DNA from: Frigoribacterium sp. MEB024
GTDB lineage: Bacteria > Actinomycetota > Actinomycetes > Actinomycetales > Microbacteriaceae
NCBI RefSeq assembly: GCF_000878135.1
Contig: NZ_JXQZ01000041.1
Coordinates: forward strand, 1-61,846
DNA: 61,846 bases
Direction of reading: 5' to 3'
Shown: positions 15,718 to 54,450 of the stretch, piece after piece
How the letters are laid out: the number at the start of each line of letters is the position of its first letter
How positions within the stretch are numbered: position 1 is the first letter of the stretch
The notes under the pieces: generated by a model
What the model saw: only the letters and a program-made list of their open reading frames with translations
The model's database searches: none
Told to the model about the DNA's origin: nothing
Program-made: the position numbers and the translations under genes

Positions 15718-15719
15718 GG

Positions 15720-26448: not shown

Positions 26449-26466
26449 TGATCAGTCATCGGGCAG
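26449..26466 (+). repeat. Intergenic 18-nt repeat, weak copy
   Basis: TGATCAGTCATCGGGCAG against consensus CGATCnnCTATCGGGCAC. Leftmost copy found. Confidence 0.45.
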
Positions 26467-26625
26467 ACCGTGGAACTCTTCTACCGTGGACAAGAAGACA
26501 ACCCTGAAGCCAGTAGCGGCCGCTCTCAGAGCGGGAAGAGTTCACACGCGATCATCTCGCGACTGATCGACCGGCACATCAGCCCGAAGTAGTCATCGCG
26601 CGCGCAGCAGCGGAGCCGCAGAAGA

Positions 26626-26643
26626 CCATCGTCTAGCGGGGCT
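26626..26643 (+). repeat. Intergenic 18-nt repeat
   Basis: CCATCGTCTAGCGGGGCT, 54 bp before the lysozyme start. Confidence 0.6.
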
Positions 26644-26696
26644 GGTGGCAGATCGGAGAATGTGCTCGTTCGCACGGCCCCGTAGCCTTTCGTCCC

Positions 26697-27506
26697 ATGG
26701 GGCCTGAGGCGAACGGACATGACGAGGACAGAGACGACGCCTCGGCCCGAACAGGCGCGGTCCCTCGAGGACGGCGGCGGCGCCGCATCGTCCTTTCGGC
26801 CGCCGTGGTCGCCCTCGCATCGCTCGCCGTCGCCGCGTTGCTCTTCACGGGAACGCTCTGGCCCACCCGCACGGCGGCCCTCAGGTACCCGGTGCAGGGC
26901 GTCGACGTATCCGCCTACCAGGGCACGATCGACTGGGGCGTCCTGGCGGAGGAGGACATCGACTTCGCGTGGATCAAGGCGACGGAAGGCTCGAGCTACC
27001 GAGATCCCCGGTTCGAGGACAACTGGGCCGACGCACACGACACCGACCTATTCGTCGGCGCCTACCACTTCCTCAGTGTCGACAGCCCGGGGACGGACCA
27101 AGCAGCCAACGTCATCGCCACCGTCTCCCGGAACAGGGGCGACCTGCCCGTCGTGGTCGACGTCGAGTGCTACGCCGAGTACTGCGATGCCCCTCCCTCG
27201 GCAGCCACGGTCCGGGCGGTGCTGGACCCGCTCCTCCTCGCGATCGAACAGCATTACGGCCGACCAGCTGTGCTCTACGCGACCCGCGACTGGTACGAGC
27301 GATACCTCGCCGGGAGCTACCCCGCCAACCCCATCTGGTTCCGCTCGGTCGCCACCTCCCCGCGTCTCACCGATGATCGCGACTGGACTTTCTGGCAGTG
27401 GTCCGCGCGCGAGCAGCTCGACGGGTACGACGGGGACGAAGAGTTCATCGACATGAACGCCTTTCGAGGCACCCGAGAAGACCTGGAGTCGTTGCTGCTG
27501 CCTTGA
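26697..27506 (+). CDS. Membrane-anchored GH25 lysozyme-like muramidase
   Basis: 269 residues. A basic cytoplasmic N-terminus and one membrane helix (about 31-52) precede a GH25 domain (about 66-265): VQGVDVSAYQGTIDWG with Asp70, FAWIKATEGSSYRDP, GAYHFLSVDSPGTDQAANVI, and the catalytic VVVDVE (Asp155, Glu157), ending with WTFWQWSAREQLDGYDG. Expected to cleave the muramic acid-glucosamine bond outside the cell. A single-gene unit between two repeat copies. Confidence 0.92.
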   Translation: MGPEANGHDEDRDDASARTGAVPRGRRRRRIVLSAAVVALASLAVAALLFTGTLWPTRTAALRYPVQGVDVSAYQGTIDWGVLAEEDIDFAWIKATEGSSYRDPRFEDNWADAHDTDLFVGAYHFLSVDSPGTDQAANVIATVSRNRGDLPVVVDVECYAEYCDAPPSAATVRAVLDPLLLAIEQHYGRPAVLYATRDWYERYLAGSYPANPIWFRSVATSPRLTDDRDWTFWQWSAREQLDGYDGDEEFIDMNAFRGTREDLESLLLP

Positions 27507-27542
27507 TGCCCCGCCGTCGCGGCCGCGCTGATGCCCGCAGCA

Positions 27543-27560
27543 GCATCCCCTACCGAGACA
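27543..27560 (+). repeat. Intergenic 18-nt repeat, diverged copy
   Basis: GCATCCCCTACCGAGACA, 36 bp after the lysozyme stop. Confidence 0.5.
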
Positions 27561-27634
27561 GCGCCGGGGCCTGCGACGCATGAGGTCCCTTGCAACCACG
27601 GGGACAGCGGCCATGATCGCGAGAGACCGTGACG

Positions 27635-28579
27635 CTACTGGGTGTCGACGTGCCCGATCGGGTCGCCGGCTCGGCGGAGAGCGTCCCGGGCCGCGGGCCA
27701 GGCGCCCCCGTCGACGCGGAGAGCGGTGCGGAGGTAGGCGGTGCTCATGCGCTGGATGACGGCGACCAGTTCGGGGTTCTCGTCGGCGGTCTCGGCCACT
27801 TCGTAGCCGACGATCCCGCCCAGGGAATGTTCTCCGCCGTGCAGGGCGAGGAGGTCGGTGGCGCCGGGGCTGTGCGTGTAGGCGTCGGTGAACCAGTCCG
27901 GTCCGCGGCTGGACATCGTGGATTGGTCGTGGTCGCCGGCGACGACGAGGGTCGGGGTGGTGAGCTCACGGAACGACGGGCGCATGAAGGGGAAGTTCGC
28001 CTGCGCGAAGGGGTGCAGGTCGTCGCCGCCGAGACCGGTGGCGGCGAAGAGGATGCCCGCGGTGACGCGGCTGTCGGACATGTCGTCTCCGACGTGGCCC
28101 TCCTCGTCGACGATGCGTGCACCGAGGAGTGTCTGCGCTGTCTGGCCGCCCCAGGAGTGACCTGTCGCGGCGATCCGGTCGCGGTCGACGCGGCCGGCGA
28201 GACCCGGGACGGCCCCTTCGACGGTGTCGAGCTGGTCGAGGACGCGGGTCAGGTCGGCGATGCGTTCGGTCCAGATCGTCGGGAAGACCGGGTGGTCGAA
28301 CCCGAACCCGTTCCGCCTCGAGTCGAGGTGCGTGGGCTGGACGACGACGAAGCCGCGCGAGGCCCAGAACGCGGCCAGGGGCGCGTACCCGTCGAGGTTC
28401 CAGCCGTTGCCGTGCGAGAACACGACGACCGGCAGGTCGCCTCCCGTGGCGGGTGCCGACACGCGGACCTCGAGCGGGACGGCGCGCCCCGGGGCCGACA
28501 AGGTGACCGGCGCGACGGAGACGACCGGGCCGCCGCCGCCGCCGATCTCGTCCAGTGCGGTGACGAGTGATGAGGACAT
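27635..28579 (-). CDS. Alpha/beta hydrolase (PAF-acetylhydrolase/dienelactone hydrolase-like)
   Basis: 314 residues from ATG 28579. VVVFSHGNGWNLDGYAPLA (oxyanion region), the nucleophile elbow GHSWGG, GDHD acid region and HGGEHSLGG with the catalytic His. No signal peptide, so cytoplasmic. Divergent from a TetR gene with two operators between; probably a detoxifying esterase under its control. Substrate unknown. Confidence 0.85.
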   Translation of the reverse strand: MSSSLVTALDEIGGGGGPVVSVAPVTLSAPGRAVPLEVRVSAPATGGDLPVVVFSHGNGWNLDGYAPLAAFWASRGFVVVQPTHLDSRRNGFGFDHPVFPTIWTERIADLTRVLDQLDTVEGAVPGLAGRVDRDRIAATGHSWGGQTAQTLLGARIVDEEGHVGDDMSDSRVTAGILFAATGLGGDDLHPFAQANFPFMRPSFRELTTPTLVVAGDHDQSTMSSRGPDWFTDAYTHSPGATDLLALHGGEHSLGGIVGYEVAETADENPELVAVIQRMSTAYLRTALRVDGGAWPAARDALRRAGDPIGHVDTQ

Positions 28580-28624
28580 GGAGGGTGCCTTTCGTCGGGA
28601 GTCACGCTCTGCGATACTGCTTAT

Positions 28625-28662
28625 CGGAGCGCCGCTCCGCAACATTACGGAACGTCGCTCCG
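28625..28662. promoter_or_regulatory. Paired TetR operators
   Basis: CGGAGCGCCGCTCCG (28625-28639) is a perfect palindrome around one base; CGGAACGTCGCTCCG (28648-28662) is a close copy 23 bp on. They occupy the divergent promoter between the hydrolase and the TetR gene. Confidence 0.78.
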
Positions 28663-28700
28663 TTAAGCAAGCACCGGTTCGACCCGATCGAGGAGGCGCC

Positions 28701-29327
28701 ATGCCCGACACGCAGGACGGTGACGCCCCAGCCGCACAGCCACGGCCGGTGGGCCGACCCCGCAGGAGCCAGCAGGCTCTCCTGGACGCGGCTGCGGCGG
28801 TGTTCGTGGAGTCCGGCGTCGACGCTCCCGTCCGCGAGATCGCGACGAAGGCCGGCGTGGGGGTCGGCACCGTCTACCGGCATTTCCCGACCCGGCCTGA
28901 GCTGGTCGTCGCGGTCTACCGACACCAGGTCGAGGCCTGCGCCGAGGCCGGGCCGCGACTGCTCGCCGAGAGCGCGACCCCTGAAGGAGCCCTGCGTACG
29001 TGGGTGGCGCTCTTCGTGGACTTCCTCGTGACGAAGCACGGCCTCGCCACCGCCCTCCACGGTGACGCCGCTGGCTCCCACGCACTCCACGCGTACTTCG
29101 TGGGCCGCCTCGTACCGGTCTGCGGGTCACTCCTCGCCGCGGCCCGCGCCGATCTCGGCCCCACGGACGACGAGGCGGCCCTGGACGGGTACAGCCTCCT
29201 GAAGGGCGTCGGCAACCTCTGCATCGGCGCCGCGAGCGACTCTGACTACGACGCCGATCGGCTCGTCCAAGCCCTGATATCCGGCGCACTCACCCCAGAG
29301 TCATCACGGCTCGAAGGCCCCCGGTAA
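28701..29327 (+). CDS. TetR family transcriptional regulator
   Basis: 208 residues from ATG 28701, with GAGGAGG upstream. The helix-turn-helix reads AAAVFVESGVDAPVREIATKAGVGVGTVYRHFPTRPEL, after a Pro/Arg-rich N-terminal arm. Likely represses itself and the divergent hydrolase. Confidence 0.9.
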   Translation: MPDTQDGDAPAAQPRPVGRPRRSQQALLDAAAAVFVESGVDAPVREIATKAGVGVGTVYRHFPTRPELVVAVYRHQVEACAEAGPRLLAESATPEGALRTWVALFVDFLVTKHGLATALHGDAAGSHALHAYFVGRLVPVCGSLLAAARADLGPTDDEAALDGYSLLKGVGNLCIGAASDSDYDADRLVQALISGALTPESSRLEGPR

Positions 29328-29328
29328 C

Positions 29329-29346
29329 CCATCCACTAGTGCGACG
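29329..29346 (+). repeat. Intergenic 18-nt repeat, diverged copy
   Basis: CCATCCACTAGTGCGACG, starting two bases after the TetR stop. Closest to the copy at 33567 (CTAGTGGGACG). Confidence 0.5.
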
Positions 29347-29450
29347 CCCGGCCGTGGCGACAGACCCACATTTCGCAACCTGCCCTGGAACGAAACTGAA
29401 TAGGCTGTGAGACTCGACGACATGCGTTGCCTATCGAAGAGGTGAGTGGT

Positions 29451-29720
29451 TTGCCCCAAGAAACTTCCGACCGCCTCAGCCGTTATGCGGTGGCATTCGT
29501 CGCTGTAGGTGTCCTGGCGCTGGTCTTGCTCTGGGCGTTTGGTGCGCCAACCCTTGTGACCGCATTTGGTGCCGGGCTGGGACACCTGGCATTGCAGGAC
29601 ATCAAGCGAACGAGATCCCGCGACATCGCCCTGGCCTCGGTGGGCCTGACACTTGCGTACGGCCTGACGCTCAGCTCGATCATCCGGTTCATTCCATCGG
29701 CGATCAATGGTCTCAACTAG
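29451..29720 (+). CDS. Small membrane protein, 89 residues
   Basis: The TTG at 29451 is preferred because AGGTGAG (29440-29446) sits at correct spacing; TTG 29427 and GTG 29442 are alternatives. Two hydrophobic helices (VAFVAVGVLALVLLWAF and ALASVGLTLAYGLTLSSII) flank a basic loop DIKRTRSRD. Not recognised. A single-gene unit between repeats. Confidence 0.65.
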   Translation: MPQETSDRLSRYAVAFVAVGVLALVLLWAFGAPTLVTAFGAGLGHLALQDIKRTRSRDIALASVGLTLAYGLTLSSIIRFIPSAINGLN

Positions 29721-29885
29721 GCAGCCCCTCCTTCGCAGCGAGCTCAACAATCGCGCCCCTTCCAGGATCCACGGCACCGACCCGACAGGCACTCAACACC
29801 CCCGCGACGGATGAGCTCACGGCGGGTAGTGGCGATCGTCACCTCTACCCGACGCAGCCTCTGGCAGAAGATCCAGTCCGATGAT

Positions 29886-29903
29886 CGATCCCCTATCCGG
29901 CGT
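29886..29903 (+). repeat. Intergenic 18-nt repeat
   Basis: CGATCCCCTATCCGGCGT, 3 bp from the end of the convergent MarR gene. Confidence 0.7.
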
Positions 29904-29906
29904 GTA

Positions 29907-30371
29907 TCAGTAAGCGTCGCCGATGCCCGGTGATTTCTCCGCGCCCTCGATGACAGCGAGCAGCAGTGCGTTGAGCTGTGCGCTCCGCGACGCGTCCAGC
30001 CCGAACATGCTGAGGTCGTTCGTCGCCAGGGCCACCTGCTGCACCGCGTCGAGCACGGCCTGGCCGGCTGGCGTGCTCGCGGCGGGGTTCCTCCGGCCGC
30101 GGGCGCGGATGCCCACCCGGCGGACGAGACCGCGACGTTCCATCCCGTCGAGCACGTCCGACATGCTCTGCGGGCGAACGAAGACGGCCCGAGCGATCTC
30201 CGCCGACGTGAGCTCAGCACCGTCCGCCAGGCACGACAGCACGCCGAACTGCACGAGGCTCACGTCGTGCTCCGCCATCCCCGCGGTGATCTGGGAGCCG
30301 ATGATGCGGGCGACCTTCACCGCGTTCCAGCCCAGCACGGACTCGAGCCCGCGACCTCCGTCGTCACTCAT
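29907..30371 (-). CDS. MarR family transcriptional regulator
   Basis: 154 residues from ATG 30371, preceded by GGAGG. Winged helix: VSLVQFGVLSCLADGAELTSAEIARAVFVRPQSMSDVLDGMERRGLVRR, wing with GRRNPAASTPAG. Divergent from the cyclase-family gene, with two palindromes between them. Confidence 0.88.
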   Translation of the reverse strand: MSDDGGRGLESVLGWNAVKVARIIGSQITAGMAEHDVSLVQFGVLSCLADGAELTSAEIARAVFVRPQSMSDVLDGMERRGLVRRVGIRARGRRNPAASTPAGQAVLDAVQQVALATNDLSMFGLDASRSAQLNALLLAVIEGAEKSPGIGDAY

Positions 30372-30399
30372 GCGTGCCTCCTCGTCGCTCACCTCGATA

Positions 30400-30440
30400 A
30401 AACAGGAACCTGTTTTTGAGGCTATGGTGCAGGAACCTGC
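30400..30440. promoter_or_regulatory. Two MarR operator palindromes
   Basis: AAACAGGAACCTGTTT (30400-30415) and GCAGGAACCTGC (30429-30440) share the core CAGGAACCTG. They lie between the divergent MarR and cyclase genes. Confidence 0.78.
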
Positions 30441-30510
30441 TTCAGGGACCTCCTTGCAGTGTGCACCACCCACCCGCGCGAGACCGAACCGACATGACAG
30501 GACAGCCACC

Positions 30511-31386: not shown

Positions 31387-31418
31387 ACCGACACCACGGC
31401 CGTGCGCGCCGCAATGAC

Positions 31419-31436
31419 CGATCGGCTATCGGGCAG
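31419..31436 (+). repeat. Intergenic 18-nt repeat
   Basis: CGATCGGCTATCGGGCAG, a near-consensus copy between convergent genes. Confidence 0.8.
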
Positions 31437-31451
31437 CGCTCCCGTCGAGAG

Positions 31452-31703
31452 CTACTGCGGAGGAGGCGGCGGAAAAACGTTGGTGAAGGCGTAGAGCACG
31501 ATGACCGTCGAGATGATCAGCATGCCGATCCCGCCGACGATCATCAGCCCTGGCGACTGGGTCTGCGGGCCGATCCGGCGCCCCTGATCCTTGTAGGCCC
31601 TGCGAGCGGCATCGGAGATGTGCTGGTGGAACACGATGAAGCAGACCCCGAAGATCGCGAACAGGGGCGCAAAGACCACGGCGGCGCCCTGCAGCTCTGT
31701 CAT
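31452..31703 (-). CDS. Small two-helix membrane protein, 83 residues
   Basis: ATG 31703 with AGGATGAGG upstream. Helices FAPLFAIFGVCFIVFH and LMIVGGIGMLIISTVIVLYAF flank a basic loop (DAARRAYKDQGRRIGP), with a Pro-rich tail. Not recognised. Follows the SDR gene on the same strand. Confidence 0.7.
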   Translation of the reverse strand: MTELQGAAVVFAPLFAIFGVCFIVFHQHISDAARRAYKDQGRRIGPQTQSPGLMIVGGIGMLIISTVIVLYAFTNVFPPPPPQ

Positions 31704-31776
31704 CGCCTCATCCTGTCCGCGAGAACGGCCACAGGTCCACATAGGTGCGGCCGCAGGACGGGTGCGCGTCCCCGTC

Positions 31777-32562: not shown

Positions 32563-32647
32563 GTGATGAGCGTCTTCGCCCCGGGAACTCGCATCCAGGC
32601 ACAAACGGTACGAGGGTCCGCGGCCTGACCGGGCGGAGAATGGCGGC

Positions 32648-33505: not shown

Positions 33506-33566
33506 ACGGCCCATCCAAGCTTTGGCTCCGAGAGATCGACCAACATCGCGGCCGAGTCTCGGTGGC

Positions 33567-33584
33567 CGATCGTCTAGTGGGACG
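33567..33584 (+). repeat. Intergenic 18-nt repeat
   Basis: CGATCGTCTAGTGGGACG, ending two bases before the stop of the minus-strand amidohydrolase. Confidence 0.75.
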
Positions 33585-33586
33585 CC

Positions 33587-44848: not shown

Positions 44849-44866
44849 CGATCCCCTACCGGGCAG
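44849..44866 (+). repeat. Intergenic 18-nt repeat
   Basis: CGATCCCCTACCGGGCAG, 34 bp before the DUF2625 gene. Confidence 0.75.
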
Positions 44867-44899
44867 ATCTTCTGGGTCTGCATCCGGTAAACCCTGGCT

Positions 44900-45580
44900 A
44901 TGGCTCAAACTATGGCCATGGGGAACACTGGGGACAATGCGTGGGCAGAACTTAGCGACCTCATCTCAGCATCACCCCTTGATGTCGCCGTTCTGCCACG
45001 GGACGCAAATGCGCGTACGGCGTCAGCGCTGGAACTTGGGCCGAGCTCATACCTTGGCGCCCTCGCTCGAGAAACATCGGGCCTGCTCATCGATCACGGC
45101 TGGTTACGAATCCTCGGCGGCAGCTCCTCAAATGGAGGGCTACCCGGTCTGGATCAAGCCAGCGCCGGCACACCAGGACTCCTCGTCGTTGCCTACGACG
45201 TACTCGGCGGAGCATTTGCCCTGGACGGCGGCGCATTCGGCAAAGGCGACGGCTCCGTCCACCACTTCTCAGTGGACAACCTGACCTGGGAAGACCTCGA
45301 AATCGGCCACGCGCAGTTCGTGACGACAATGCTCGCAGGGGCTATCACGAAGTTCTACGAGACGCTCCGATGGCCACGATGGCAAGACGACCTCGCCGCC
45401 TTGAACCTGGCCGACGGCTTGCATCTCTACCCTCCCCCCTTCACCACAGAGGGAAAGGACGTCGCCACCGTCAGTAAGGGGACGGTACCGATGAGGGAAC
45501 TCATCGGCGTACACAACACCTTCATGGACCAGCTCGGATCCGGTCAAGGCGTCCCCGACCCATGGTCCGCGGCCACGTGA
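44900..45580 (+). CDS. DUF2625 family protein
   Basis: 226 residues. The family block ALELGPSSYLGALARETSGLLIDHGWLRILG is clear, followed by LLVVAYDVLGGAFALDGGAF and TTMLAGAITKFYETLRWPRW. Cytosolic, function unknown. Lower GC than the core genes. No good ribosome site is visible, so a start at the downstream in-frame ATG (44912) is possible. Confidence 0.85.
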   Translation: MAQTMAMGNTGDNAWAELSDLISASPLDVAVLPRDANARTASALELGPSSYLGALARETSGLLIDHGWLRILGGSSSNGGLPGLDQASAGTPGLLVVAYDVLGGAFALDGGAFGKGDGSVHHFSVDNLTWEDLEIGHAQFVTTMLAGAITKFYETLRWPRWQDDLAALNLADGLHLYPPPFTTEGKDVATVSKGTVPMRELIGVHNTFMDQLGSGQGVPDPWSAAT

Positions 45581-45593
45581 CCGTTCCGACAGG

Positions 45594-45611
45594 CCATGGC
45601 CTACCGGACAC
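45594..45611 (+). repeat. Intergenic 18-nt repeat, weak copy
   Basis: CCATGGCCTACCGGACAC, 14 bp after the DUF2625 stop. Confidence 0.45.
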
Positions 45612-45696
45612 GCTCCGGACTCGAGTCGTCGAGGGTGCGAGGCGGGTCAAAGGGTGCCAAGGCGGTTGGTGGCCACGCCGGCGCTAGGGTCAGGGC

Positions 45697-46095
45697 ATGA
45701 ACGAGGCCGACCGCGAATTGCTCCGCCGGGCCGAGGCCGAAGTGGCGGCGCTGCCCCACCGCGACCCGCTCGTCGACCCGTCACCCCGTTTGGGCGACGG
45801 CCCCGCCCCCGAGACCGAGCCGACCGGTCGGGCTCGGCTGCTCGCCCCGCTGACCCTCATCGTCTGCTTCGTCACGGCCTGCGCCGAGGGTTCCTGGCTC
45901 TGGTTCTCCGCCGCAGAGTGGACCTCGATGGTCTGGCTCGCCGTGCCATTCCTGCTGGTCGCCTCGATCGTGCTCGCACTCATCGCCGGAGCTCTAGGCG
46001 GCCGCACTGGCCGATGGGCCGGCGTCTGTGGTGGCATCGCGATCGTGCCGCCCGTATGTTTCGTGGTGTCGCTTCCGCTGGCGCTTTTTACGTAG
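45697..46095 (+). CDS. Three-helix membrane protein, 132 residues
   Basis: A polar N-terminal 45 residues rich in Glu/Arg/Pro, then three hydrophobic helices (LTLIVCFVTACA, LAVPFLLVASIVLALIAGAL, GGIAIVPPVCFVVSLPLALF). Not recognised. One-gene unit between repeats. Confidence 0.7.
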   Translation: MNEADRELLRRAEAEVAALPHRDPLVDPSPRLGDGPAPETEPTGRARLLAPLTLIVCFVTACAEGSWLWFSAAEWTSMVWLAVPFLLVASIVLALIAGALGGRTGRWAGVCGGIAIVPPVCFVVSLPLALFT

Positions 46096-46140
46096 ACCGC
46101 TGCGGCTTGCGCCGAGTCAGCTTGGTGGCAGGCCGGTAGC

Positions 46141-46158
46141 CGATCGTCTAACGGGCAC
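46141..46158 (+). repeat. Intergenic 18-nt repeat
   Basis: CGATCGTCTAACGGGCAC, 46 bp after the preceding stop. Confidence 0.8.
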
Positions 46159-46616: not shown

Positions 46617-46634
46617 CGATCCCCTTTCGGGCGG
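46617..46634 (+). repeat. Intergenic 18-nt repeat
   Basis: CGATCCCCTTTCGGGCGG, 27 bp before the lipoprotein start. Confidence 0.72.
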
Positions 46635-46660
46635 CACCTCGGCCGTGTTTAGCTGCGGAC

Positions 46661-47107: not shown

Positions 47108-47126
47108 AGAAACTAGTCCTTGTGAC

Positions 47127-47144
47127 CGATCCTTCACCGGGCAC
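47127..47144 (+). repeat. Intergenic 18-nt repeat
   Basis: CGATCCTTCACCGGGCAC, 20 bp after the lipoprotein stop. Confidence 0.65.
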
Positions 47145-47190
47145 TAGATGCTCGGCCGACATACGGCTACGTTGCGAGGGCAGCCCAGAC

Positions 47191-47210
47191 CCCCGCTGTG
47201 AATGGCGGGG
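47191..47210. terminator. Hairpin in intergenic space
   Basis: CCCCGC (47191-47196) and GCGGGG (47205-47210) form a short stem, followed by a second GC-rich fold. Possible terminator between the convergent lipoprotein and NmrA-like genes. Confidence 0.4.
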
Positions 47211-47239
47211 TTCCTGGGTTCGCCCGGGTTCCCCGTCAT

Positions 47240-47257
47240 GGATCCCCTATCGGGCAT
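47240..47257 (+). repeat. Intergenic 18-nt repeat
   Basis: GGATCCCCTATCGGGCAT, second copy within the same intergenic space as 47127. Confidence 0.8.
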
Positions 47258-47384
47258 GCAGAAACGATCGTTTGTGACTAGCGCCGACGAACACCACGAG
47301 CGGGCCCTGGCCAGATCAGAACCGCTCCCCAACTGAAGACCGCCTTGGTCGGGGAGCAGCCCTTGCTGTCGTACAGCGAACGGG

Positions 47385-48233
47385 TCAGGCCCGGAGGTCC
47401 TTGAGCCACTGCTCGACCGTGCGCGGGCTCAGCCCGAGCTGCTGCTGTGCGCTCGTGGCAGGGTCGATGAGCTCGGAGGGCAGGGTGGCCCGCCACCGGT
47501 ACGAGGCCACGACAGGGTCCGCTCCGGCTGAGCCGAAGAGGGGCTCGATGACGCGGCCGAAGTCGTCGACGTCCTGCGCCTCGAACCGCACGCTCGTGCC
47601 CGAGGCTGCGGCGAAGCCAGCCGCGAGGTCGGAGCCCACGAGGCCGGGCAGCGCACCGACCCCGACGACACCGGTCACGGAGCCGTCCTGCAGCAGTCGC
47701 GCGACGACGTCGGCCACGTCGAGGTGCGAGCTCCACGACACGGCGTAGTCGTCACGGATCGGGTAGCGGAGGACGCCCTCCTGCTCCACGCCCGCGGCGA
47801 CCGGCGGCAGCAGCAGGTTCTCGAGGAAGAGGCGCGGGGCCGCGACGGCGACGGAGACCCCGGTCGCCCGCAGACCGGCAGTGAGGAAGCCGACGGGACT
47901 CTCAGCCGCACCGTCGCCCTCCGTCGGGTACCCGCTGGTCGAGACGACCACCCGGGCCGGCCGTGCCTGCTCGACGGCTGCGACGACCGTCCGGGCATGC
48001 GCGAGCTGCTGGGCGGCGTCGCCGACCGGAAGGTGCACGAAGACGCCGTCGACGCCCGCGTAGGCCGCCGCGAGGGACGCGACCGACATCAGGTCGACGG
48101 CGACGGGCGCGCCGCCTCCCTCATAGGCGGACGGGTCGCGGACCGCCGCGGTGACGGCGGCGCCGGAAGCGAGAAGGGATGCGACGACGGGGGAGCCCTG
48201 GGCGCCAGTAGCGCCGTGGATGAGATAGGTCAT
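47385..48233 (-). CDS. NmrA-like NAD(P)-binding protein
   Basis: 282 residues. Atypical SDR: TYLIHGATGAQGSPVVASLLASG, AYAGVDGVFVHLPVG, VVVSTSGYPTEG, RLFLENLLLPP. Such proteins often act as redox sensors or quinone reductases. Divergent from an HxlR regulator with a palindrome between them, so probably its target. Confidence 0.88.
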   Translation of the reverse strand: MTYLIHGATGAQGSPVVASLLASGAAVTAAVRDPSAYEGGGAPVAVDLMSVASLAAAYAGVDGVFVHLPVGDAAQQLAHARTVVAAVEQARPARVVVSTSGYPTEGDGAAESPVGFLTAGLRATGVSVAVAAPRLFLENLLLPPVAAGVEQEGVLRYPIRDDYAVSWSSHLDVADVVARLLQDGSVTGVVGVGALPGLVGSDLAAGFAAASGTSVRFEAQDVDDFGRVIEPLFGSAGADPVVASYRWRATLPSELIDPATSAQQQLGLSPRTVEQWLKDLRA

Positions 48234-48249
48234 GAAGCTATCAATGCAT

Positions 48250-48278
48250 CTGGTGCACCAGTTACGTCAACTGCACCA
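48250..48278. promoter_or_regulatory. HxlR operator region
   Basis: CTGGTGCACCAG (48250-48261) is a perfect 12-bp palindrome, and TGGTGCA at 48251 is matched by TGCACCA at 48272-48278. It covers the short divergent promoter of the NmrA-like and HxlR genes. Confidence 0.75.
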
Positions 48279-48292
48279 ATGGCGTACTGTCC

Positions 48293-48652
48293 ATGTTCAT
48301 GGCTTTCTGTGGGGAGATCTGGCCCGAGTGCGGCATCGCGAAGTTCCTGACACTGCTCGACGGCCCCTGGGCAACGCTCATCGTGCGAGAGCTCCTCGAG
48401 GGCCCGGCTCGTTTCACCGAGCTAAAGGAGGCGCTGCCCGGCATCAGTGCGCACACCCTCACCAACCGCCTCCGGAAGTTCGAGACGTCGGGCCTCGTCA
48501 CCAGGACGGCGTACTCCGAGATCCCGCCGCGCGTCGTCTACGAGCTCACCCCGACGGGGCAGGGGCTCCGGCCCGTGCTTGAGTCGATGAACGCCTGGGC
48601 GCTGTCCGTCCCGCCGACACCCGACGCAGAGATCGAGGTGGTTCCTCGGTAG
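48293..48652 (+). CDS. HxlR family transcriptional regulator
   Basis: 119 residues. Conserved winged helix: KFLTLLDGPWATLIVRELLEGPARFTELKEALPGISAHTLTNRLRKFETSGLVTR. Cys6 and Cys13 at the N-terminus could sense electrophiles or oxidants, as in other HxlR proteins. Ends next to a repeat copy. Confidence 0.9.
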   Translation: MFMAFCGEIWPECGIAKFLTLLDGPWATLIVRELLEGPARFTELKEALPGISAHTLTNRLRKFETSGLVTRTAYSEIPPRVVYELTPTGQGLRPVLESMNAWALSVPPTPDAEIEVVPR

Positions 48653-48653
48653 A

Positions 48654-48671
48654 GGATCGTCTATCGGGACG
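48654..48671 (+). repeat. Intergenic 18-nt repeat supplying a stop codon
   Basis: GGATCGTCTATCGGGACG. On the minus strand its CTA provides the TAG stop of the SRPBCC gene (48661-48663); on the plus strand it starts 1 bp after the HxlR stop. Confidence 0.82.
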
Positions 48672-49068
48672 CCGCCCTGAGCAGGTTTGCGAGATGGTAG
48701 TTCCACCCCTCCTCGTGTGCGGCTCGAAGTCCGTCGCCATCTACGAGCTGCCCAAAACCTCGTTCCGTCAGCGTGACCGTGCTCCGCTCGCCGTCACTAC
48801 GGATGTCGAAGCGGACCATAAGTGGCGACGGCCATTCCGGCTGCTGCCACACGAAGGCCAGCCGCCTCGGCGGTACTGCTTCCGTCACGCGACCGTCAGC
48901 GAAGTGCTCGCGGCCGCCCTCGGTCCAGGTCTCGCGCACGACCGAGCCGACCTCGGGAGTCAGCACCAGCTCAGGCCACCAGGAGTCGCGCTCGTCCGTA
49001 AGCGCGCACCACAGTCCCTCCGCGGAGGACACCGATGCGACGGTGATCGACAGCGAGTCAGCGCACAT
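48661..49068 (-). CDS. SRPBCC (AHSA1-like) domain protein
   Basis: 135 residues. The AHSA1/START-like fold is shown by SSAEGLWCALTDERDSWWPELVLTP, LAFVWQQPEWPSPLMVRFDI, STVTLTERGFG and HEEGWNYHLANLL. Binds hydrophobic small molecules in general; ligand unknown. Its last codons and stop lie inside the 18-nt repeat. One-gene unit. Confidence 0.85.
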   Translation of the reverse strand: MCADSLSITVASVSSAEGLWCALTDERDSWWPELVLTPEVGSVVRETWTEGGREHFADGRVTEAVPPRRLAFVWQQPEWPSPLMVRFDIRSDGERSTVTLTERGFGQLVDGDGLRAAHEEGWNYHLANLLRAASR

Positions 49069-49118
49069 GCTCAGACGCTAGTGCGTCTGCCCAGCACCGG
49101 CGCCGATGTGCCGGCCAG

Positions 49119-49136
49119 CGATCGGCTATCGAGACG
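49119..49136 (+). repeat. Intergenic 18-nt repeat
   Basis: CGATCGGCTATCGAGACG, 25 bp before the TetR operator. Confidence 0.75.
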
Positions 49137-49160
49137 CTTCTGCCGCGTTCTGTCTGTTCA

Positions 49161-49184
49161 CAAACCGACCGGCCGGTCGGTTTG
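49161..49184. promoter_or_regulatory. 24-bp perfect palindromic TetR operator
   Basis: Each half is CAAACCGACCGG or its complement, giving a perfect 24-bp palindrome centred between 49172 and 49173, 17 bp before the TetR ATG. The long AT-flanked form is typical of TetR/AcrR autoregulation. Confidence 0.85.
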
Positions 49185-49201
49185 CCTGTTATGGTGTGGT
49201 C

Positions 49202-49732
49202 ATGGATCGCCGCGCACTCGTCCTTGCCGCCGCCCGCGAGCTCGCGCTCGCACGCGGGGTCATTCCGTCGTTAAACGAGACCGCCGCCGCGGCGGGCGTA
49301 TCCAAGGGCGGGTTGGTGCACCACTTCCCGACGCGTGCGGCGCTGGTGCAGGGGCTGGCGATGGCAGCGCTCGAGGAGGTCGACACGGCCATGACCGCAG
49401 CGGCGGGCGAGGGGAGTGCGGCGGAGACCTGGTTGCGCATGTCGGTCCCCACGGGGGAGGACGTCGCGGTCTTCCGAGCGATGGCCATTGCGCACCGGGC
49501 GGTCGAGGCGCCGGGTGATGCGGTGGCGACTGCATCCCAGGAGGCCATAGCCCGATGGGAGGCGATGATCCGCGACGAGGTGGGTGACGCCGGCCGCGCA
49601 CGGGTGATCCGGCTTGTCGGCGACGGCTTGTTCGCCAACGTCATCGCCGGCATCGAGCCGGCACCCACGGCCGCGGAGCTCGACGCTCTCCTCGGTTCTC
49701 TCTTGCCCGCGGGTGGGAGGGGCGGGCGGTGA
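49202..49732 (+). CDS. TetR family transcriptional regulator
   Basis: 176 residues from ATG 49202. Helix-turn-helix PSLNETAAAAGVSKGGLVHHFPTRAALV. Its TGA overlaps the next gene's GTG, so the regulator and the GAP-family transporter are translated together. Confidence 0.9.
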   Translation: MDRRALVLAAARELALARGVIPSLNETAAAAGVSKGGLVHHFPTRAALVQGLAMAALEEVDTAMTAAAGEGSAAETWLRMSVPTGEDVAVFRAMAIAHRAVEAPGDAVATASQEAIARWEAMIRDEVGDAGRARVIRLVGDGLFANVIAGIEPAPTAAELDALLGSLLPAGGRGGR

Positions 49733-50397
49733 CCGCGCAGCTGCTGCTGGCGATCGCGGGCCTCGCTGCGCTTGACTCGCTGAACCCGGCCACGATCGTC
49801 GCGGTGACCTTGATCCTTCTCGCCGCCCCGCGGCGTCCCGCGCTGATGGCACTCGTCACGGTGCTTGGGGCGGCACTCACCGTGTTCGCGGTCGGCGCCG
49901 CGCTCTTCCTCGGCGCGGGCGCGGCAGCTGGTGCCGTCGACGGGATTGTGCAGGGTATCCGCTACGTCGCCTTCGCCGCCGCGGGCGTCGTCCTGGTCCG
50001 CTCCGGGATACGACGCTTCCACACGCGACCCAGGAAGCCGATCGGGTTGCCATCGTGGTTCACACCCTGGACTGCGCTCCCGTTCGGGGCGCTGCTAACC
50101 GGGGCCGACCTACCGAATGCGTTCCCGTACTTCATTGCGATCGAGCGCCTCCTAGACGCGCAGGTCACGCCAGCGGAGGGCCTGCTCGTCCTCGCCGGGT
50201 ACGCGGTGGTCTACTGCGTCCCGTGCCTCGTATTGCTCTTGGTGGGAAGCCTCGCGCGCCGTCGGACGCGTGCGCTGCTCATGCGTGTCACCGCCCGATT
50301 CGGTACCGGCGAGGTGAAGGCGTCCCCCTTCGTCGCGGTCGTGTTGATCCTGCTCGGCGCATTGGTCGCGTCGCTGCCGTTCTGGCTCCTGCGCTGA
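49729..50397 (+). CDS. GAP/Sap-family (LysE-like) membrane transporter
   Basis: 222 residues, six helices. LAALDSLNPATIVAVTLILL at the N-terminus and TGADLPNAFPYFIAIERLL match the GAP/Sap (PF11139-like) family, relatives of LysE exporters. Start GTG 49729 overlaps the TetR stop. Likely the exporter controlled by that TetR; substrate unknown. Confidence 0.8.
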   Translation: MTAQLLLAIAGLAALDSLNPATIVAVTLILLAAPRRPALMALVTVLGAALTVFAVGAALFLGAGAAAGAVDGIVQGIRYVAFAAAGVVLVRSGIRRFHTRPRKPIGLPSWFTPWTALPFGALLTGADLPNAFPYFIAIERLLDAQVTPAEGLLVLAGYAVVYCVPCLVLLLVGSLARRRTRALLMRVTARFGTGEVKASPFVAVVLILLGALVASLPFWLLR

Positions 50398-50410
50398 CCG
50401 ACGTCGAGCA

Positions 50411-51073
50411 GTGGTCCGGCGGAATCTCCTCGTGTGCGCGCTTGGCTCGTTCACGACGATCATTGGCATGACCCTGATTCTGCCGATCCTTCCTCTCTAC
50501 GTCCGAGACCTTGGCGTTGGGGATCCGGCCGCGGTAACTCTCTGGTCCGGCATCGCCTACGCCGCGACGTTTCTGACCGCGGCCTTGACAGCACCGCTGT
50601 GGGGTTATCTCGGGGACCACTTCGGCCGGAAACCGATGCTGATCCGCGCGAGCCTCGTCATGGCGATCGCGATGTCGCTCATCGGGGTCGCCCAAGACGT
50701 CACTCAACTCGTACTGCTGCGGCTGCTGGTCGGCCTCCTCGGCGGCTACGCCTCCGGACCAACCATCCTCGTCGCCGCTCAGACCCCTAAAGGCCGCTCC
50801 GCTTGGGCGCTGGGCACCCTCTCCTCCGCCATCATGGCCGGCACCATCGCAGGGCCTCTGATCGGTGGAACCCTCGCGCAGACAATTGGCATTCAAGGGC
50901 GTTCCTCGCAACCGGCAAACCAACACGCTCGGCTCGCAGTCGAGTGGGCGGGACAGGGTTTTGGTGTGGCGCTTGATTGCGTGGGTACGGCGAATCTCGG
51001 CCCTCATCGCGAGAGCCAGCTCGCTGGGAACTCACTAGTCCTGCCCCGTATGGGTGAGATCAGACGGGTTTAA
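50411..51073 (+). pseudogene. Truncated MFS transporter
   Basis: The first about 158 residues are the N-terminal half of a multidrug MFS pump (LPLYVRDLG, GYLGDHFGRKPMLIRAS, RLLVGLLGGYASGPTILVA, GPLIGGTLAQTIGI). After about 50892 membrane character ends and an unrelated polar tail of about 60 residues follows (from QGRSSQPANQ). The second half of the pump is missing, so the gene looks broken by deletion or insertion. Only 14 bp after the GAP gene, it was probably part of the same efflux operon. Confidence 0.72.
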
Positions 51074-51659
51074 TTGCGCCCATGGCCTCGTCGAGCAGCC
51101 TTCCAAAGGATCGGCCACGGTCCGTGGTGATCCATACATCCTTCGCGGCGATCACGCAGGTCAGGGCCGCGCCGGCGATCACCGTCGGGCGCGGGTCGGT
51201 GACCGCTAAACGGCCCAGGCGCATCCGTACGATTTCGGCGAGATCGCCCTGGACCCGCGAGATACGCGCGAGCTCGCCCGCACTCAGAGCCGGGTTGTCA
51301 TGGATGATCTTTTCGATCGCGAGGGCGCGTTCAGCGAGTGTCTCGTCCTCGAAGTGCTCGACGACGACGTCGAATGCCCGCCGTAGCGATTCCCACACCG
51401 GCTCGTCGACGGGCCGTGCACCGAGTGCCTGGGCGAGCATCTGCGACCACGCGTCGTACTTGCCCAGCATGACGTCCTCTTTCGAGGTGAAGTAGCGAAA
51501 GAACGTTCGCCTGGAGATGCCGGCAGCCGAGACCAGGTCATCGATTGTTGTCTGCTCGTATCCCCTAACCGCGAACAGATCCTGGGCCAGCATCGCCAAC
51601 TCGGTTTGCATGGCTCGTCGAGCTCTTTCACGCACCGGGATAGGAGTGGACTCGCTCAC
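51060..51659 (-). CDS. TetR family transcriptional regulator
   Basis: 199 residues from GTG 51659 (TTG 51680 also possible). Helix-turn-helix TTIDDLVSAAGISRRTFFRYFTSKEDVML. C-terminal ligand domain with AALTCVIAAKDVW. Divergent from an SDR with palindromes in between. Its 3' end overlaps the decayed tail of the MFS gene by 14 bp. Confidence 0.88.
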   Translation of the reverse strand: MSESTPIPVRERARRAMQTELAMLAQDLFAVRGYEQTTIDDLVSAAGISRRTFFRYFTSKEDVMLGKYDAWSQMLAQALGARPVDEPVWESLRRAFDVVVEHFEDETLAERALAIEKIIHDNPALSAGELARISRVQGDLAEIVRMRLGRLAVTDPRPTVIAGAALTCVIAAKDVWITTDRGRSFGRLLDEAMGAIKPV

Positions 51660-51701
51660 ATGTGCCAGCTTACAAGGCAACGGGCATAGGTGGCACTCAG
51701 T

Positions 51702-51713
51702 GGCACATGTGCC
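51702..51713. promoter_or_regulatory. TetR operator candidates
   Basis: GGCACATGTGCC is a perfect 12-bp palindrome; related GGCAC half-sites recur at 51692 and 51720, and CACATGTG recurs at 51657-51664 over the TetR start. Together they mark the control region of the TetR/SDR pair. Confidence 0.65.
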
Positions 51714-51762
51714 CTACAGTGGCATTTGCCAGACGTTGACCACGAAACATTGGAGCTGCCAC

Positions 51763-52677
51763 ATGACCACGCCATGGACTTTGAACGACATCCCACGCCA
51801 GGACGGGCGCGTCGCTGTGATCACCGGAGGCAGTAGTGGACTCGGCTTTGAGACCGCCCTCGCCCTCGCGGATCATGGCGCGGCCGTGGTGCTCGCTGTC
51901 CGCGACACCACCAAGGGCAAGGAGGCCGCGTCGAGAATCGCCTCCCATGTGCCCAATGCCAAAGTCTCCGTGCAGAACCTGGACCTGGGTTCACTGGAAT
52001 CCGTGCGCGCAGCGGCCACAGATCTCAGGTCGGCGCACCCGCGGATTGACCTGCTGATCAACAACGCCGGCGTGATGTACACGCCTCAGCAGAAGACAGC
52101 CGACGGTTTCGACCTGCAGTTCGGCGTGAACCACCTCGGTCACTTCGCGCTGACCGGGCTGCTGCTCGATCACCTCCTGCCTGTGCCGGGCTCTCGAGTC
52201 GTGACGGTGAGCAGCTACGGTCACCGCATTCGCGCGGCTATCTACTTCGACGACCTGCAGTGGGACCGCAGCTACGACCGGGTTGCCGCCTATGGCCAGG
52301 CCAAGCTGGCCAACTTGATGTTCACCTACGAGCTGCAGCGCCGCCTCACGGCGTACGGCAGCACTATGGCCGTCGCCGCGCACCCAGGCAACGCTTCCAC
52401 CGAGTTGACCCAGAACTTGCCTGCTCTCGCGCGGATCGCGTCGGCCGCCGTCAAGCCTTTGCTTGCCCAAAGCGCTGCTGGAGGCGCACTCCCCACACTG
52501 CGTGCCGCAACTGATCCAAGCGTGCTCGGCGGCCAGTACTACGGCCCCGACCGCATACGCGAGACCCGAGGACACCCGCAGTTGGTTACATCCAGCGCCG
52601 CCTCATACGACCTGACGACACAGCGCCACCTGTGGTCCGTGTCCGAGGAACTCACCGGCGTTACCTTTCCCGCATAA
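51763..52677 (+). CDS. Short-chain dehydrogenase, retinol-dehydrogenase-like
   Basis: 304 residues. TGGSSGLGFETALALADHG, NNAGVMYTPQQKTADGFDLQFGVNHLGHF, SSYGHR, and YGQAKLAN (Tyr and Lys). Typical of actinobacterial SDRs acting on hydrophobic carbonyls. Likely repressed by the divergent TetR. Confidence 0.92.
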   Translation: MTTPWTLNDIPRQDGRVAVITGGSSGLGFETALALADHGAAVVLAVRDTTKGKEAASRIASHVPNAKVSVQNLDLGSLESVRAAATDLRSAHPRIDLLINNAGVMYTPQQKTADGFDLQFGVNHLGHFALTGLLLDHLLPVPGSRVVTVSSYGHRIRAAIYFDDLQWDRSYDRVAAYGQAKLANLMFTYELQRRLTAYGSTMAVAAHPGNASTELTQNLPALARIASAAVKPLLAQSAAGGALPTLRAATDPSVLGGQYYGPDRIRETRGHPQLVTSSAASYDLTTQRHLWSVSEELTGVTFPA

Positions 52678-52779
52678 CGACTCAACCCCGGAAAAGAGAC
52701 GCCCTCTATCCAACGACCATAAGCATTCGTTCCTGCAGAACTCCACCTGGCACACAGCCAGGTGGACGATCGACCACCG

Positions 52780-52797
52780 CCGCCCGATAGCTAACCG
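52780..52797 (-). repeat. Intergenic 18-nt repeat, inverted copy
   Basis: On the minus strand reads CGGTTAGCTATCGGGCGG; the only copy found in reverse orientation. A plus-strand copy follows 68 bp later. Confidence 0.65.
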
Positions 52798-52865
52798 CCT
52801 ATAGGGCGATTAGCCCGCTCTCCCGAGACCGACACCACTACTCACTGACCCCCCGTCTCAGTGCG

Positions 52866-52883
52866 CGATCCCCTCTCGGGACA
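52866..52883 (+). repeat. Intergenic 18-nt repeat
   Basis: CGATCCCCTCTCGGGACA, 20 bp before the interrupted gene at 52904. Confidence 0.75.
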
Positions 52884-52903
52884 CGCGCCTGACACACTCG
52901 AGG

Positions 52904-53215
52904 TTGGAAGTCGTCTCGCAATTTCTGGCATTGGAGCGAACCATCGACGCACACGACCTACCCGCGTCACCCGACTGGTCCTTCACCTTTGGAGGCGAGG
53001 GCACTGCTCCTGCTGTAAATATCGCTGCCGACGACGCCTTGGCATGACTGGCCTCAGCAACAGAGGATTTACGCCGCAGGAAGAATCCGGCGGCGAGCTT
53101 CCCGCCGAGCTGGGTCGCCCTGATCCGCGAGGCGGCAAACGCGGGAGTCTCGGAAGGAGCCATCGCGATTGCGAGCGGACAAAGCCTGGCGTCTGTTCGG
53201 AACATCCTCTCTTAG
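52904..53215 (+). pseudogene. Small gene interrupted by an in-frame TGA
   Basis: A single frame from TTG 52904 to TAG 53215 is coding-like throughout except for a TGA at 53045-53047. The first part has SPDWSFTFGGEGTAPAVNI; the second has SFPPSWVALIREAANAGVSE and IASGQSLASVRNIL, resembling a small helix-turn-helix. Probably one nonsense mutation in a gene of about 103 codons. Bases around 52678-52865 hold only repeat copies. Confidence 0.5.
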
Positions 53216-53246
53216 CTTCTGGGTGAGGCCCCCTGGGCCCGCCAGA

Positions 53247-53264
53247 CGATCAGCTATCGGGCGC
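53247..53264 (+). repeat. Intergenic 18-nt repeat supplying a stop codon
   Basis: CGATCAGCTATCGGGCGC. Its CTA (53254-53256) is the minus-strand TAG of the 94-residue gene. Confidence 0.82.
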
Positions 53265-53538
53265 GCCGGGCTTTTCGACGAACGAACGTAACGACAGCCA
53301 CGCCAAGAGCCGAGACGACCGCTGCAACCGCGGCTACCCGTCCCACACGCTGCGCATTGAGCGCCGACTCGAACTGCTGCTTCGTCTGGACGATCTCCGT
53401 CCCCTCAGGCACTGGCCAGGGAAAGACCGGTGTGAACCACCCGGCCCTGACGGTTGCGATAGCGCAGACGACGAGTGCTGCGACGGTCAAGCCACTGAGA
53501 ACTAACGCCCACCGAGTGGGGCGAGATGGACGTGCCAT
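53254..53538 (-). CDS. Two-helix membrane protein, 94 residues
   Basis: Helices WALVLSGLTVAALVVCAIATV and VAAVAAVVSALGVAVVTFV are separated by an external loop (WPVPEGTEIVQTKQQFESAL); Arg/Lys-rich tail ends in the repeat-derived stop. Not recognised. One-gene unit. Confidence 0.72.
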   Translation of the reverse strand: MARPSRPTRWALVLSGLTVAALVVCAIATVRAGWFTPVFPWPVPEGTEIVQTKQQFESALNAQRVGRVAAVAAVVSALGVAVVTFVRRKARRAR

Positions 53539-53608
53539 GGGGTCACGGTAGCGCGCCTACGACTTACAGCCGTGCGGCCTGCGGTGCCGCCACATCGAGA
53601 CAAGTTGG

Positions 53609-53626
53609 CGATCGCCTATCGGGCAC
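53609..53626 (+). repeat. Intergenic 18-nt repeat
   Basis: CGATCGCCTATCGGGCAC, an exact match to the consensus, 34 bp before the LepB start. Confidence 0.85.
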
Positions 53627-53660
53627 CGAATGAGGGGGCTCCGCCCAGTACGTTGTCTCC

Positions 53661-54380
53661 ATGCCAACGGCCCTCAACACTGCCGGCCGACGCCCGCGAT
53701 CAATCTGGCGGTTCCTGCGTGACGTGCTCGTCATCTTCCTCGCAGCCCTCGTCCTCTCTTTCCTGGTCAAGACCTACCTCGTGCGCTCCTTCTACATCCC
53801 CTCGGGGTCGATGGAGCACACCCTCGAAATTAACGACCGCGTGATTGTCAACGAACTCGTTCCAGGACTTGTGCCCCTGCACCGCGGAGACGTCGTCGTC
53901 TTCGCAGACCCCGGCGGCTGGCTCAGCCCTCTCGAAGCCGCAACCCCTGCCACGGGACCAGTTGACAAAGTGCTCTCCACCATCGGGTTGGCACCCCATG
54001 ACGGCACCGGATATCTCATCAAGCGCGTCATTGGCCTGCCCGGAGACACCGTGACCTGTTGCGACGATTTCGGGCACATGAGCGTCAACGGCGTCCCCCT
54101 CGATGAGCCATACATCACCGTTCTCCCCGACGAAACCCGCGCTTCCCGTGATGACTTCACCGTCACGGTCCCCGATGGCTCCCTCTGGGTCATGGGCGAC
54201 AACAGGTACAACTCGAGAGATTCCCGCTACAACCGTGACAAACCCGGGGAAGGCTTCGTTCCCCTGAGCGACGTCGCTGGGCGAGCAGCCGTCATCAGCT
54301 GGCCCTCGAGCCGCTGGACCTGGCTCGACAATTACCCCACCGTCTTCGCCGGCACCGATCCCCGCTCCATAACCAACTGA
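53661..54380 (+). CDS. lepB: Type I signal peptidase, bacterial LepB type
   Basis: 239 residues. One membrane helix (about 20-38), catalytic Ser50 in PSGSMEHTL, Lys121 in YLIKRVIGLPGD, and the box WVMGDNRYNSRDSR. Cleaves Sec/Tat signal peptides at the outer membrane face. Usual lepB neighbours (rplS, rnhB) are absent, and the base composition is lower in GC than the core genes, so it is likely an accessory copy. One-gene unit between repeats. Confidence 0.93.
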   Translation: MPTALNTAGRRPRSIWRFLRDVLVIFLAALVLSFLVKTYLVRSFYIPSGSMEHTLEINDRVIVNELVPGLVPLHRGDVVVFADPGGWLSPLEAATPATGPVDKVLSTIGLAPHDGTGYLIKRVIGLPGDTVTCCDDFGHMSVNGVPLDEPYITVLPDETRASRDDFTVTVPDGSLWVMGDNRYNSRDSRYNRDKPGEGFVPLSDVAGRAAVISWPSSRWTWLDNYPTVFAGTDPRSITN

Positions 54381-54432
54381 AGGATTGCGACGACGCACGT
54401 TCTACGGAAGCGCACAAAGAGGGTGCGGCCAG

Positions 54433-54450
54433 GGATCGTCTATCGGGCAC
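54433..54450 (+). repeat. Intergenic 18-nt repeat, rightmost copy
   Basis: GGATCGTCTATCGGGCAC. Lies in 229 bp of otherwise unassigned sequence (54381-54609) between convergent genes. Confidence 0.85.

Follow-up and report, generated by a model that had tools for sequence, protein, structure and literature searches.

Relation to described systems

Integrons rest on a single type of tyrosine recombinase. Small resolvases are usually restricted by topology to fixed pairs of sites (compare PMC9943657). The subject of this report is a stretch of 61,846 bases, referred to here as the window, which is contig C73 of the 3.4-Mb draft genome of Frigoribacterium sp. MEB024. In it a short palindromic site recurs between small gene units, and a gene for a small serine recombinase stands at the end of the row. 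We consider it very likely that the region is an integron-like cassette array that uses this small serine recombinase. Integrons are nearly absent from the phylum of these hosts; PMC9024848 gives complete integrons as not found in Actinobacteria.

The locus is like an integron in that small gene units stand in rows, bounded by sites of mostly one orientation, are reordered between strains and have a recombinase gene at the end. Two integron traits are found in particular: same-orientation sites (354 of 395 sites in 45 array segments share one orientation relative to the recombinase gene) and units gained or lost one by one (one clean case, below). It is unlike an integron in that the linked enzyme is a small serine recombinase, with no IntI-type gene found in the arrays searched (those of the own genome and of the closed genomes G015 and G008), and in that the array sites are short palindromes with a GATC centre that do not have the look of a folded attC (no attC model was applied). 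The array genes also run in both directions. As a possible counterpart to attI, a res-like site adjoins the recombinase gene, but its centre differs from that of the array sites, and in Frigoribacterium the gene stands between this site and the array.

With the Tn3 and gamma-delta resolvases and their res sites, and with the Gin and Hin invertases, the system shares the protein family, an upstream res-like dyad site and a crossover at the dyad centre; here, by contrast, dozens of dyad copies flank exchangeable genes, which is not the pattern of a single resolution or inversion. The pdif sites of Acinetobacter (XerCD dif sites) also have accessory modules between short sites, shuffled by site-specific recombination. 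As described in PMC6449649 and PMC13141974, they are 28 bp long (11-6-11), with modules of C and D types, and alternate in orientation in the plasmid tabulated. The array site differs from them in sequence and layout, in its mostly uniform orientation and in its linked serine recombinase. Serine-recombinase shufflons and invertible regions likewise have several sites of one small serine recombinase, but the inversely repeated sites of a shufflon are not what the orientation count above gives. The array sites are mostly directly repeated, which predicts excision and insertion, unlike the inversion in such shufflons. A search of one open-access library, with subscription journals and preprints outside its scope, showed no serine-recombinase cassette array among the best-matching papers listed. 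The proposed system is made of a known enzyme family, and the role of the recombinase in it is a putative one.

The repeated site

The site is an imperfect palindrome of about 26 bp, and the 18-nt motif of a preliminary description of this DNA is its core. Position-wise conservation in 106 copies with at most one mismatch gives a left arm CCGnTnR, an 8-base centre nCGATCnn and a right arm CTATCGGGC. The arms are inverted repeats, and the dyad centre falls between the A and the T of GATC. The site owes its polarity to the unequal arms, with strong conservation in the right one and weak conservation in the left one. Conservation is limited to about -8 to +16 around the one dyad (110 bp inspected on each side), and AT occupies the two central positions in 430 of 474 array sites.

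With up to three mismatches, the 18-nt consensus has 10 matches in the window, all on the plus strand, whereas 100 shuffles averaged 1.1 and never exceeded 4. All site calls hinge on a weight model, for which the training set was copies from 16 genomes with no more than one mismatch. It gives 16 confident copies in the window (score at least 13), from 29886 to 56628, and 16 of 16 are on the plus strand. In 1.6 Mb around arrays of the 16 genomes the model has 620 matches, and a single Markov-simulated sequence of the same length has 8; the 620 cover both strands, with palindromic places counted twice, and the model was trained on the same 1.6 Mb. The site cores in the window, with their scores, and two weak copies are as follows.

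26449..26466, plus strand: weak copy, first in the earlier list, score 8.6
26626..26641, plus strand: weak copy at a homology boundary, score 6.6; homology to G015 starts at 26624
29886..29901, plus strand: site core, score 29.1
31419..31434, plus strand: site core, score 30.0
33567..33582, plus strand: site core, score 21.0
44849..44864, plus strand: site core, score 24.4
45594..45609, plus strand: site core with centre CCATG, score 15.4
46141..46156, plus strand: site core with both arms strong, score 33.2
46617..46632, plus strand: site core, score 26.5
47127..47142, plus strand: site core, score 14.7
47240..47255, plus strand: site core, score 30.2
48654..48669, plus strand: site core, left boundary of the gained or lost unit, score 27.9; junction compared
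49119..49134, plus strand: site core, right boundary of the gained or lost unit, score 20.7; junction compared
52866..52881, plus strand: site core, score 19.6
53247..53262, plus strand: site core overlapping the 3' end of the open reading frame (ORF) 53254-53538 (minus strand), score 26.2
53609..53624, plus strand: site core, score 29.7
54433..54448, plus strand: site core, last before the recombinase unit, score 27.4

The motif and its plus orientation, as first described, are thus real. Weak members of the earlier list of copies score low, with 8.6 at 26449 and about 11-12 at 52782 (minus) and 52792 (plus). Weak copies can nevertheless be real boundaries, since the copy at 26626 coincides with the start of a block homologous to G015 (26624-27558). 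Near-palindromic copies are readable on both strands (46131 minus and 46141 plus; 48644 minus and 48654 plus), and so a copy reported as inverted can be the same place read on the opposite strand. Both flanks had been described as empty of copies. The 5' flank has no confident copy, but it does have one weak place (24490 minus and 24500 plus, scores 7.7 and 10.8); the 3' flank contains a res-like copy, which lies at 56628 and precedes the recombinase gene. Between 18513 and 23744 the window has several blocks that match stretches around the arrays of other genomes, with almost no recognisable sites; this part is possibly a decayed older portion of the array.

Genome-wide, the copies are concentrated in arrays. 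In closed G015, 66 of 71 pattern matches lie inside four arrays, and in closed G008, 24 of 27 lie inside two; together this makes 90 of 98 in six arrays, each with a recombinase copy at its end. One-mismatch matches number 5 to 58 per genome in the own genome and 15 same-genus relatives (0 to 2 for a reversed-pattern control) and 0 to 15 in each of 44 genomes of other genera. Equal density and random orientation across the genome, which the preliminary description had named as a refuting outcome, were thus not what was seen.

This distribution bears on whether the sites could be a motif oriented by replication or segregation, or else act in RNA as processing signals or terminators, options that the preliminary description had entertained in part and that are not favoured here. 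The sites read toward dnaA in four of four G015 arrays and in one of two G008 arrays (with the terminus assumed opposite), but five consistent arrays of six are too few to judge, the copies cluster beside the recombinase gene and not along the replichores, and the DNA exchange described below would be left unexplained. An RNA processing element predicts no DNA crossover. Moreover, by a simple codon-GC rule the best ORF of 276 distinct units runs along the site in 119 and against it in 105 (none in 52), and we regard explanations of this kind as extremely improbable. The window has no Rfam match at the gathering threshold, and a tRNA search of it found none.

Exchange of units and position of the crossover

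The 1.6 Mb from 16 genomes contain 431 units between neighbouring sites, with a median length of 699 bp, in 88 multi-copy clusters and 188 singletons. Of the multi-copy clusters, 85 occur in more than one genome, or 52 if G013 and G015, whose arrays are nearly identical, are counted as one; key counts were therefore repeated without G013. The 492 sites that have flanks form 103 pairs alike on both sides, 329 alike on the left alone and 208 alike on the right alone; without G013 (426 sites) these counts are 31, 263 and 146. In pairs that share the left flank (246 distinct), agreement exceeds background as far as position 3 and has fallen close to it at positions 5-6; in pairs that share the right flank (120 distinct), it exceeds background from position 3 onward. 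This places the crossover within core positions 1-4, the GATC. The dyad centre coincides with this mapped crossover, as predicted by the mechanism of serine recombinases. Comparison of the genomes shows that units have been exchanged between strains, with the crossover inside GATC, and of the three options in the preliminary description, that of a recombination or insertion site is upheld by this site-bounded exchange.

The ends of homology between arrays are strongly enriched at sites but not confined to them: a site is at most 20 bp away in 547 of 1060 (3.4% expected for random positions), in 468 of 923 without G013 (3.3% expected) and in 389 of 619 when ends near recombinase genes are also removed. 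Where a pair shares its left flank, homology on the right breaks off in 188 of 378 cases at sites, compared to 718 of 4381 at non-site positions (a control that used 3000 of 172,296 sampled positions). Old insertions shuffled by ordinary homologous recombination, with the repeats as passive scars or deletion-only sites, could draw on the homology that shared cassettes provide, and 513 of the 1060 homology ends lie away from called sites. Yet the junctions switch within 4 bp of a short core between unrelated flanks, and a single unit has been gained or lost with both junctions at sites, so that we hold this explanation to be quite improbable.

The cleanest case of the gain or loss of a single unit is 48657-49121, with both junctions in GATC. 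The window segments 47130-48656 and 49122-53249 are adjacent in G015, joined at one site (3595351), with 1525 of 1527 and 4121 of 4128 bases identical, respectively. In the window, the 465-bp unit stands between these neighbours with a site on each side. The G015 junction corresponds to window site 48654 in its left half and to 49119 in its right half, and the two halves meet in GATC. This AHSA1-like unit is also present in G007, at 99.4% and between other neighbours. The preliminary description had proposed self-contained units and named single units gained or lost exactly between two copies as a test of them, and the comparison shows such a change. The units compared in the window are listed here.

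44852..45596, no strand assigned: cassette of 745 bp with a DUF2625 gene (Pfam); 745-bp copies in G013 and G015
45597..46143, no strand assigned: cassette of 547 bp with ORF 45697-46095; 3 relatives (547-548 bp, 85-88% identity) stand beside different neighbours
47130..47242, no strand assigned: cassette of 113 bp; 3 copies of 113 bp at 92-100%
47243..48656, no strand assigned: cassette of 1414 bp with an NmrA-like gene and a divergent HxlR regulator (Pfam); four other copies
48657..49121, no strand assigned: cassette of 465 bp with an AHSA1-like gene (Pfam AHSA1); absent between the same neighbours in G015
49122..52868, no strand assigned: cassette of 3747 bp with TetR, SfLAP and SDR genes (Pfam); 99.84% in G013 and G015
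52869..53249, no strand assigned: cassette of 381 bp; 3 copies at 95.6-99.7%
53250..53611, no strand assigned: cassette of 362 bp; 1 copy at 92.5% in G014
54436..56630, no strand assigned: last array unit, with a CAAX-protease-like gene (Pfam Rce1-like), ORF 55418-55834 and the recombinase gene; sites 54433 and 56628

The 1414-bp regulator and target unit has its four other copies at exactly this length (96.8-99.9% over 1-1414), and no two of its five places have the same pair of neighbours. The 745-bp unit has copies of 99.6-99.9% in the near-identical arrays of G013 and G015, where its right neighbour is different. Six unit types are common to the window and G015, five of them 99.6-100% identical and one 88%. 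The chromosome is less alike: beside another array locus shared by the window genome and G015, identity is 91.8-94.8%, with different cassettes between the flanks. Since the shared units are mostly more identical than the flanking chromosome, the cassettes most likely moved after the chromosomes diverged. Window positions 13324-17716 match G015 150001-154405 at 96.8%, and 60168-61846 match G015 186594-188298 at 93.6%, which suggests that the window array and the G015 array at 162-181 kb are at one and the same place in the chromosome.

Two further comparisons were set aside. A single-unit insertion between G015 and G008 (c6, c51, c2) is not clean, as the neighbouring unit is a diverged relative, and apparent unit replacements between G013 and G015 are actually internal length differences within the same units.

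A cassette of 3425 bp with an SLAC1-type gene lies outside any array, at G000 C57:16113-19537 and G007 C2:1201762-1205186. It sits within a 12-kb stretch that is 99.98% identical between two Frigoribacterium genomes and was probably transferred recently, to judge from that identity. The 20-kb C57 stretch around it contains no recombinase of the array family.

The linked serine recombinase

The preliminary description was silent on the recombinase gene and on the site upstream of it, which tie the system together.

55925..56500, minus strand: small serine recombinase of 191 amino acids, resolvase/invertase family (Pfam Resolvase 1e-41, HTH_7)
56501..56644, minus strand: res-like region upstream of the recombinase gene, core at 56628 with centre CGACC, not CGATC (homology and site call)

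The gene sits 1.5 kb past the last copy in the earlier list. Its predicted product has the features of the family, a catalytic domain with the active serine and arginines and a C-terminal helix-turn-helix (HTH). Residues R7, S9, R45, D67, R68 and R71, which we take from gamma-delta resolvase to be the catalytic ones, are all present. The closest solved structures in the PDB are those of Gin invertase (4e-32) and gamma-delta resolvase (8e-21). Among the best 80 loci, the closest named relatives are from Frigoribacterium (Microbacteriaceae). The own genome and 15 of 15 same-genus genomes encode the recombinase, with a best match of at least 95% in all 15 relatives.

In the six arrays of the two closed genomes, the recombinase copy is always at the same end and in the same relative orientation, and in one of them it is about 20 kb from the nearest array site. 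The 45 segments used for the orientation count, out of 55, are those with exactly one recombinase match of at least 85% over 150 residues. A count of sides from these segments is biased by the stretches fetched, and equal 10-kb flanks give an unbiased one: at 16 loci there are 107 sites 3' of the recombinase gene, 89 of them in the expected orientation, and 2 sites 5'. The 16 loci are from 21 Frigoribacterium loci among the best 80 recombinase loci; four were dropped for short flanks, and L120, with full flanks, was also dropped.

Homology of the recombinase unit with most other copies stops at about 56632-56652. A site is called about 135 bp upstream of the recombinase start codon in 30 of the 45 segments, at 134-137 bp in 29 of these 30 and in the orientation of the array in 29 of 30. 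The stretch behind this dyad site is conserved in other genera too. The linked site has AC at its centre in every readable copy, 41 of 41, of which 37 were scored by script and 4 by eye.

It might be argued that the array sites are true recombination sites worked by another enzyme, Xer or a different serine recombinase encoded elsewhere, and that the linked gene is merely carried along and acts at no site but the res-like one beside it. The AC centre, where most array sites have AT, would fit such an arrangement, and the same genomes hold more distant recombinases of the family. The constant presence of the same gene at the same end of all six arrays argues otherwise, as do the arms of the linked site, which resemble those of the array sites, and we consider another enzyme unlikely.

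Tyrosine recombinases (PF00589) were searched for in the own genome, G015 and G008. The own genome has 4 matches, none on contigs C73, C63, C58 and C57, and G015 and G008 have 5, none in the six arrays, the nearest being about 35 kb from an array. A conventional integron with a tyrosine integrase, or attC sites without their integrase, would also be organised as an array, with sites mostly of one orientation and small cassettes that are exchanged. Against this stand the lack of a tyrosine recombinase in the arrays searched and the confinement of conservation to the surroundings of one dyad, with no long folded site (again with no attC model applied), and hardly any credence can be given to an integron of the known kind. 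No transposase was found by Pfam among 40 window ORFs scanned.

At G004 C1:1775706, the flank of the recombinase-linked site matches the far flank of an array locus shared by G015 and G000, as if the array had been reversed. Stop codons in recombinase copies were also considered as signs of decay: those in G007 C1 and G006 C26 are the natural gene end, and one of two in G014 C10 is internal.

A model for cassette exchange

The linked serine recombinase most likely performs the exchange, as judged from its linkage, from the position of the dyad centre on the crossover and from the absence of a tyrosine integrase in the arrays searched. Units would be bounded by half-sites of the palindrome. At each of two sites the recombinase would make staggered cuts, 2 bp apart, across the central AT of GATC, and would then join the halves of one site to those of the other. 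Between directly repeated sites such an exchange would release the intervening DNA as a circle, and recombination between the site of the circle and an array site would insert it; hence the sites of one row would share an orientation. Circles as intermediates and the entry of new units by integration are what we infer from the pattern of gain and loss.

According to PMC11607074, serine recombinases cut the centre of the crossover site to leave 2-nt 3' overhangs, and a mismatch of the central 2 bp yields recombinants in traces only. Because the linked site has AC where array sites have AT, it would insulate the recombinase gene from cassette exchange, and the gene would stay anchored at the end of the array.

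Several observations weigh against a cassette array worked by the linked serine recombinase. The central AT is palindromic, so overlap matching alone would not set the orientation; candidates for what sets it are a resolvase-like topological filter and selection. Of the 395 sites, 41 are in the opposite orientation. Pairs sharing the right flank are slightly above background at position 0 (0.81 versus 0.70). The 513 homology ends not within 20 bp of a called site belong here too, as do the breaks at non-site positions in the control; weak sites that escaped calling may account for some of these breaks, and not every homology end is explained. In Frigoribacterium the array lies 3' of the recombinase gene and the res-like site 5', a layout that differs from the geometry of attI and array in integrons. 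The empty site predicted for the 3425-bp unit (G000 C57) was not found joined in 299 family genomes and plasmids. Finally, the recombinase copy at G014 C10:8077-8643 has an internal stop codon and other genomes contain gene fragments, and some arrays may lack a working recombinase of their own.

Occurrence beyond the genus

Among the matches listed, recombinases of 70-94% identity are found in Curtobacterium, Arthrobacter, Kocuria, Clavibacter and others, on chromosomes and plasmids. In Curtobacterium plasmid D35 (L254 11201-19867), with a recombinase 93.5% identical, sites that are in several cases palindromic are spaced 1.1-2.4 kb apart 5' of the recombinase gene, together with GNAT genes; with the sites on this side, the geometry is closer to that of attI plus array in integrons. 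Arthrobacter and Pseudarthrobacter loci have similar sites. Outside Frigoribacterium, 14 of 375 homology ends are within 20 bp of a site (0.65% expected), and as this enrichment is only modest, unit exchange outside the genus is not claimed.

We think it probable that the system represents a second independent invention of the integron, an Actinobacteria platform for gene capture in which a small serine resolvase integrates and excises small cassettes at double-stranded res-type sites while its own gene is protected by a mismatched dinucleotide. To judge from related site arrays in chromosomes and plasmids of Curtobacterium, Arthrobacter and Pseudarthrobacter, it may be in use across much of an order. 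If this is true, the array strategy arose at least twice, on unrelated recombinases, which would point to a large pool of exchangeable genes in these bacteria; whether small resolvases can capture genes becomes testable, and natural serine-recombinase sites would be usable in genome engineering.

Gene content and an opposed-site unit

Ten cassette proteins were scanned with Pfam. They include a HAD hydrolase, a GNAT acetyltransferase, an alpha/beta hydrolase, an MFS transporter, an SLAC1-type channel and an HTH regulator; of the remainder, one has a DUF below the cut-off and 3 are without a Pfam match.

A conserved unit of about 107 bp with two opposed sites is present in 15 segments of 10 genomes, at most once per segment. 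It was considered as a solo res with accessory sites, but its ungapped similarity to five res regions is never above the shuffle maximum (equal to it in one). One such unit is at G000 C63:70130-70253.

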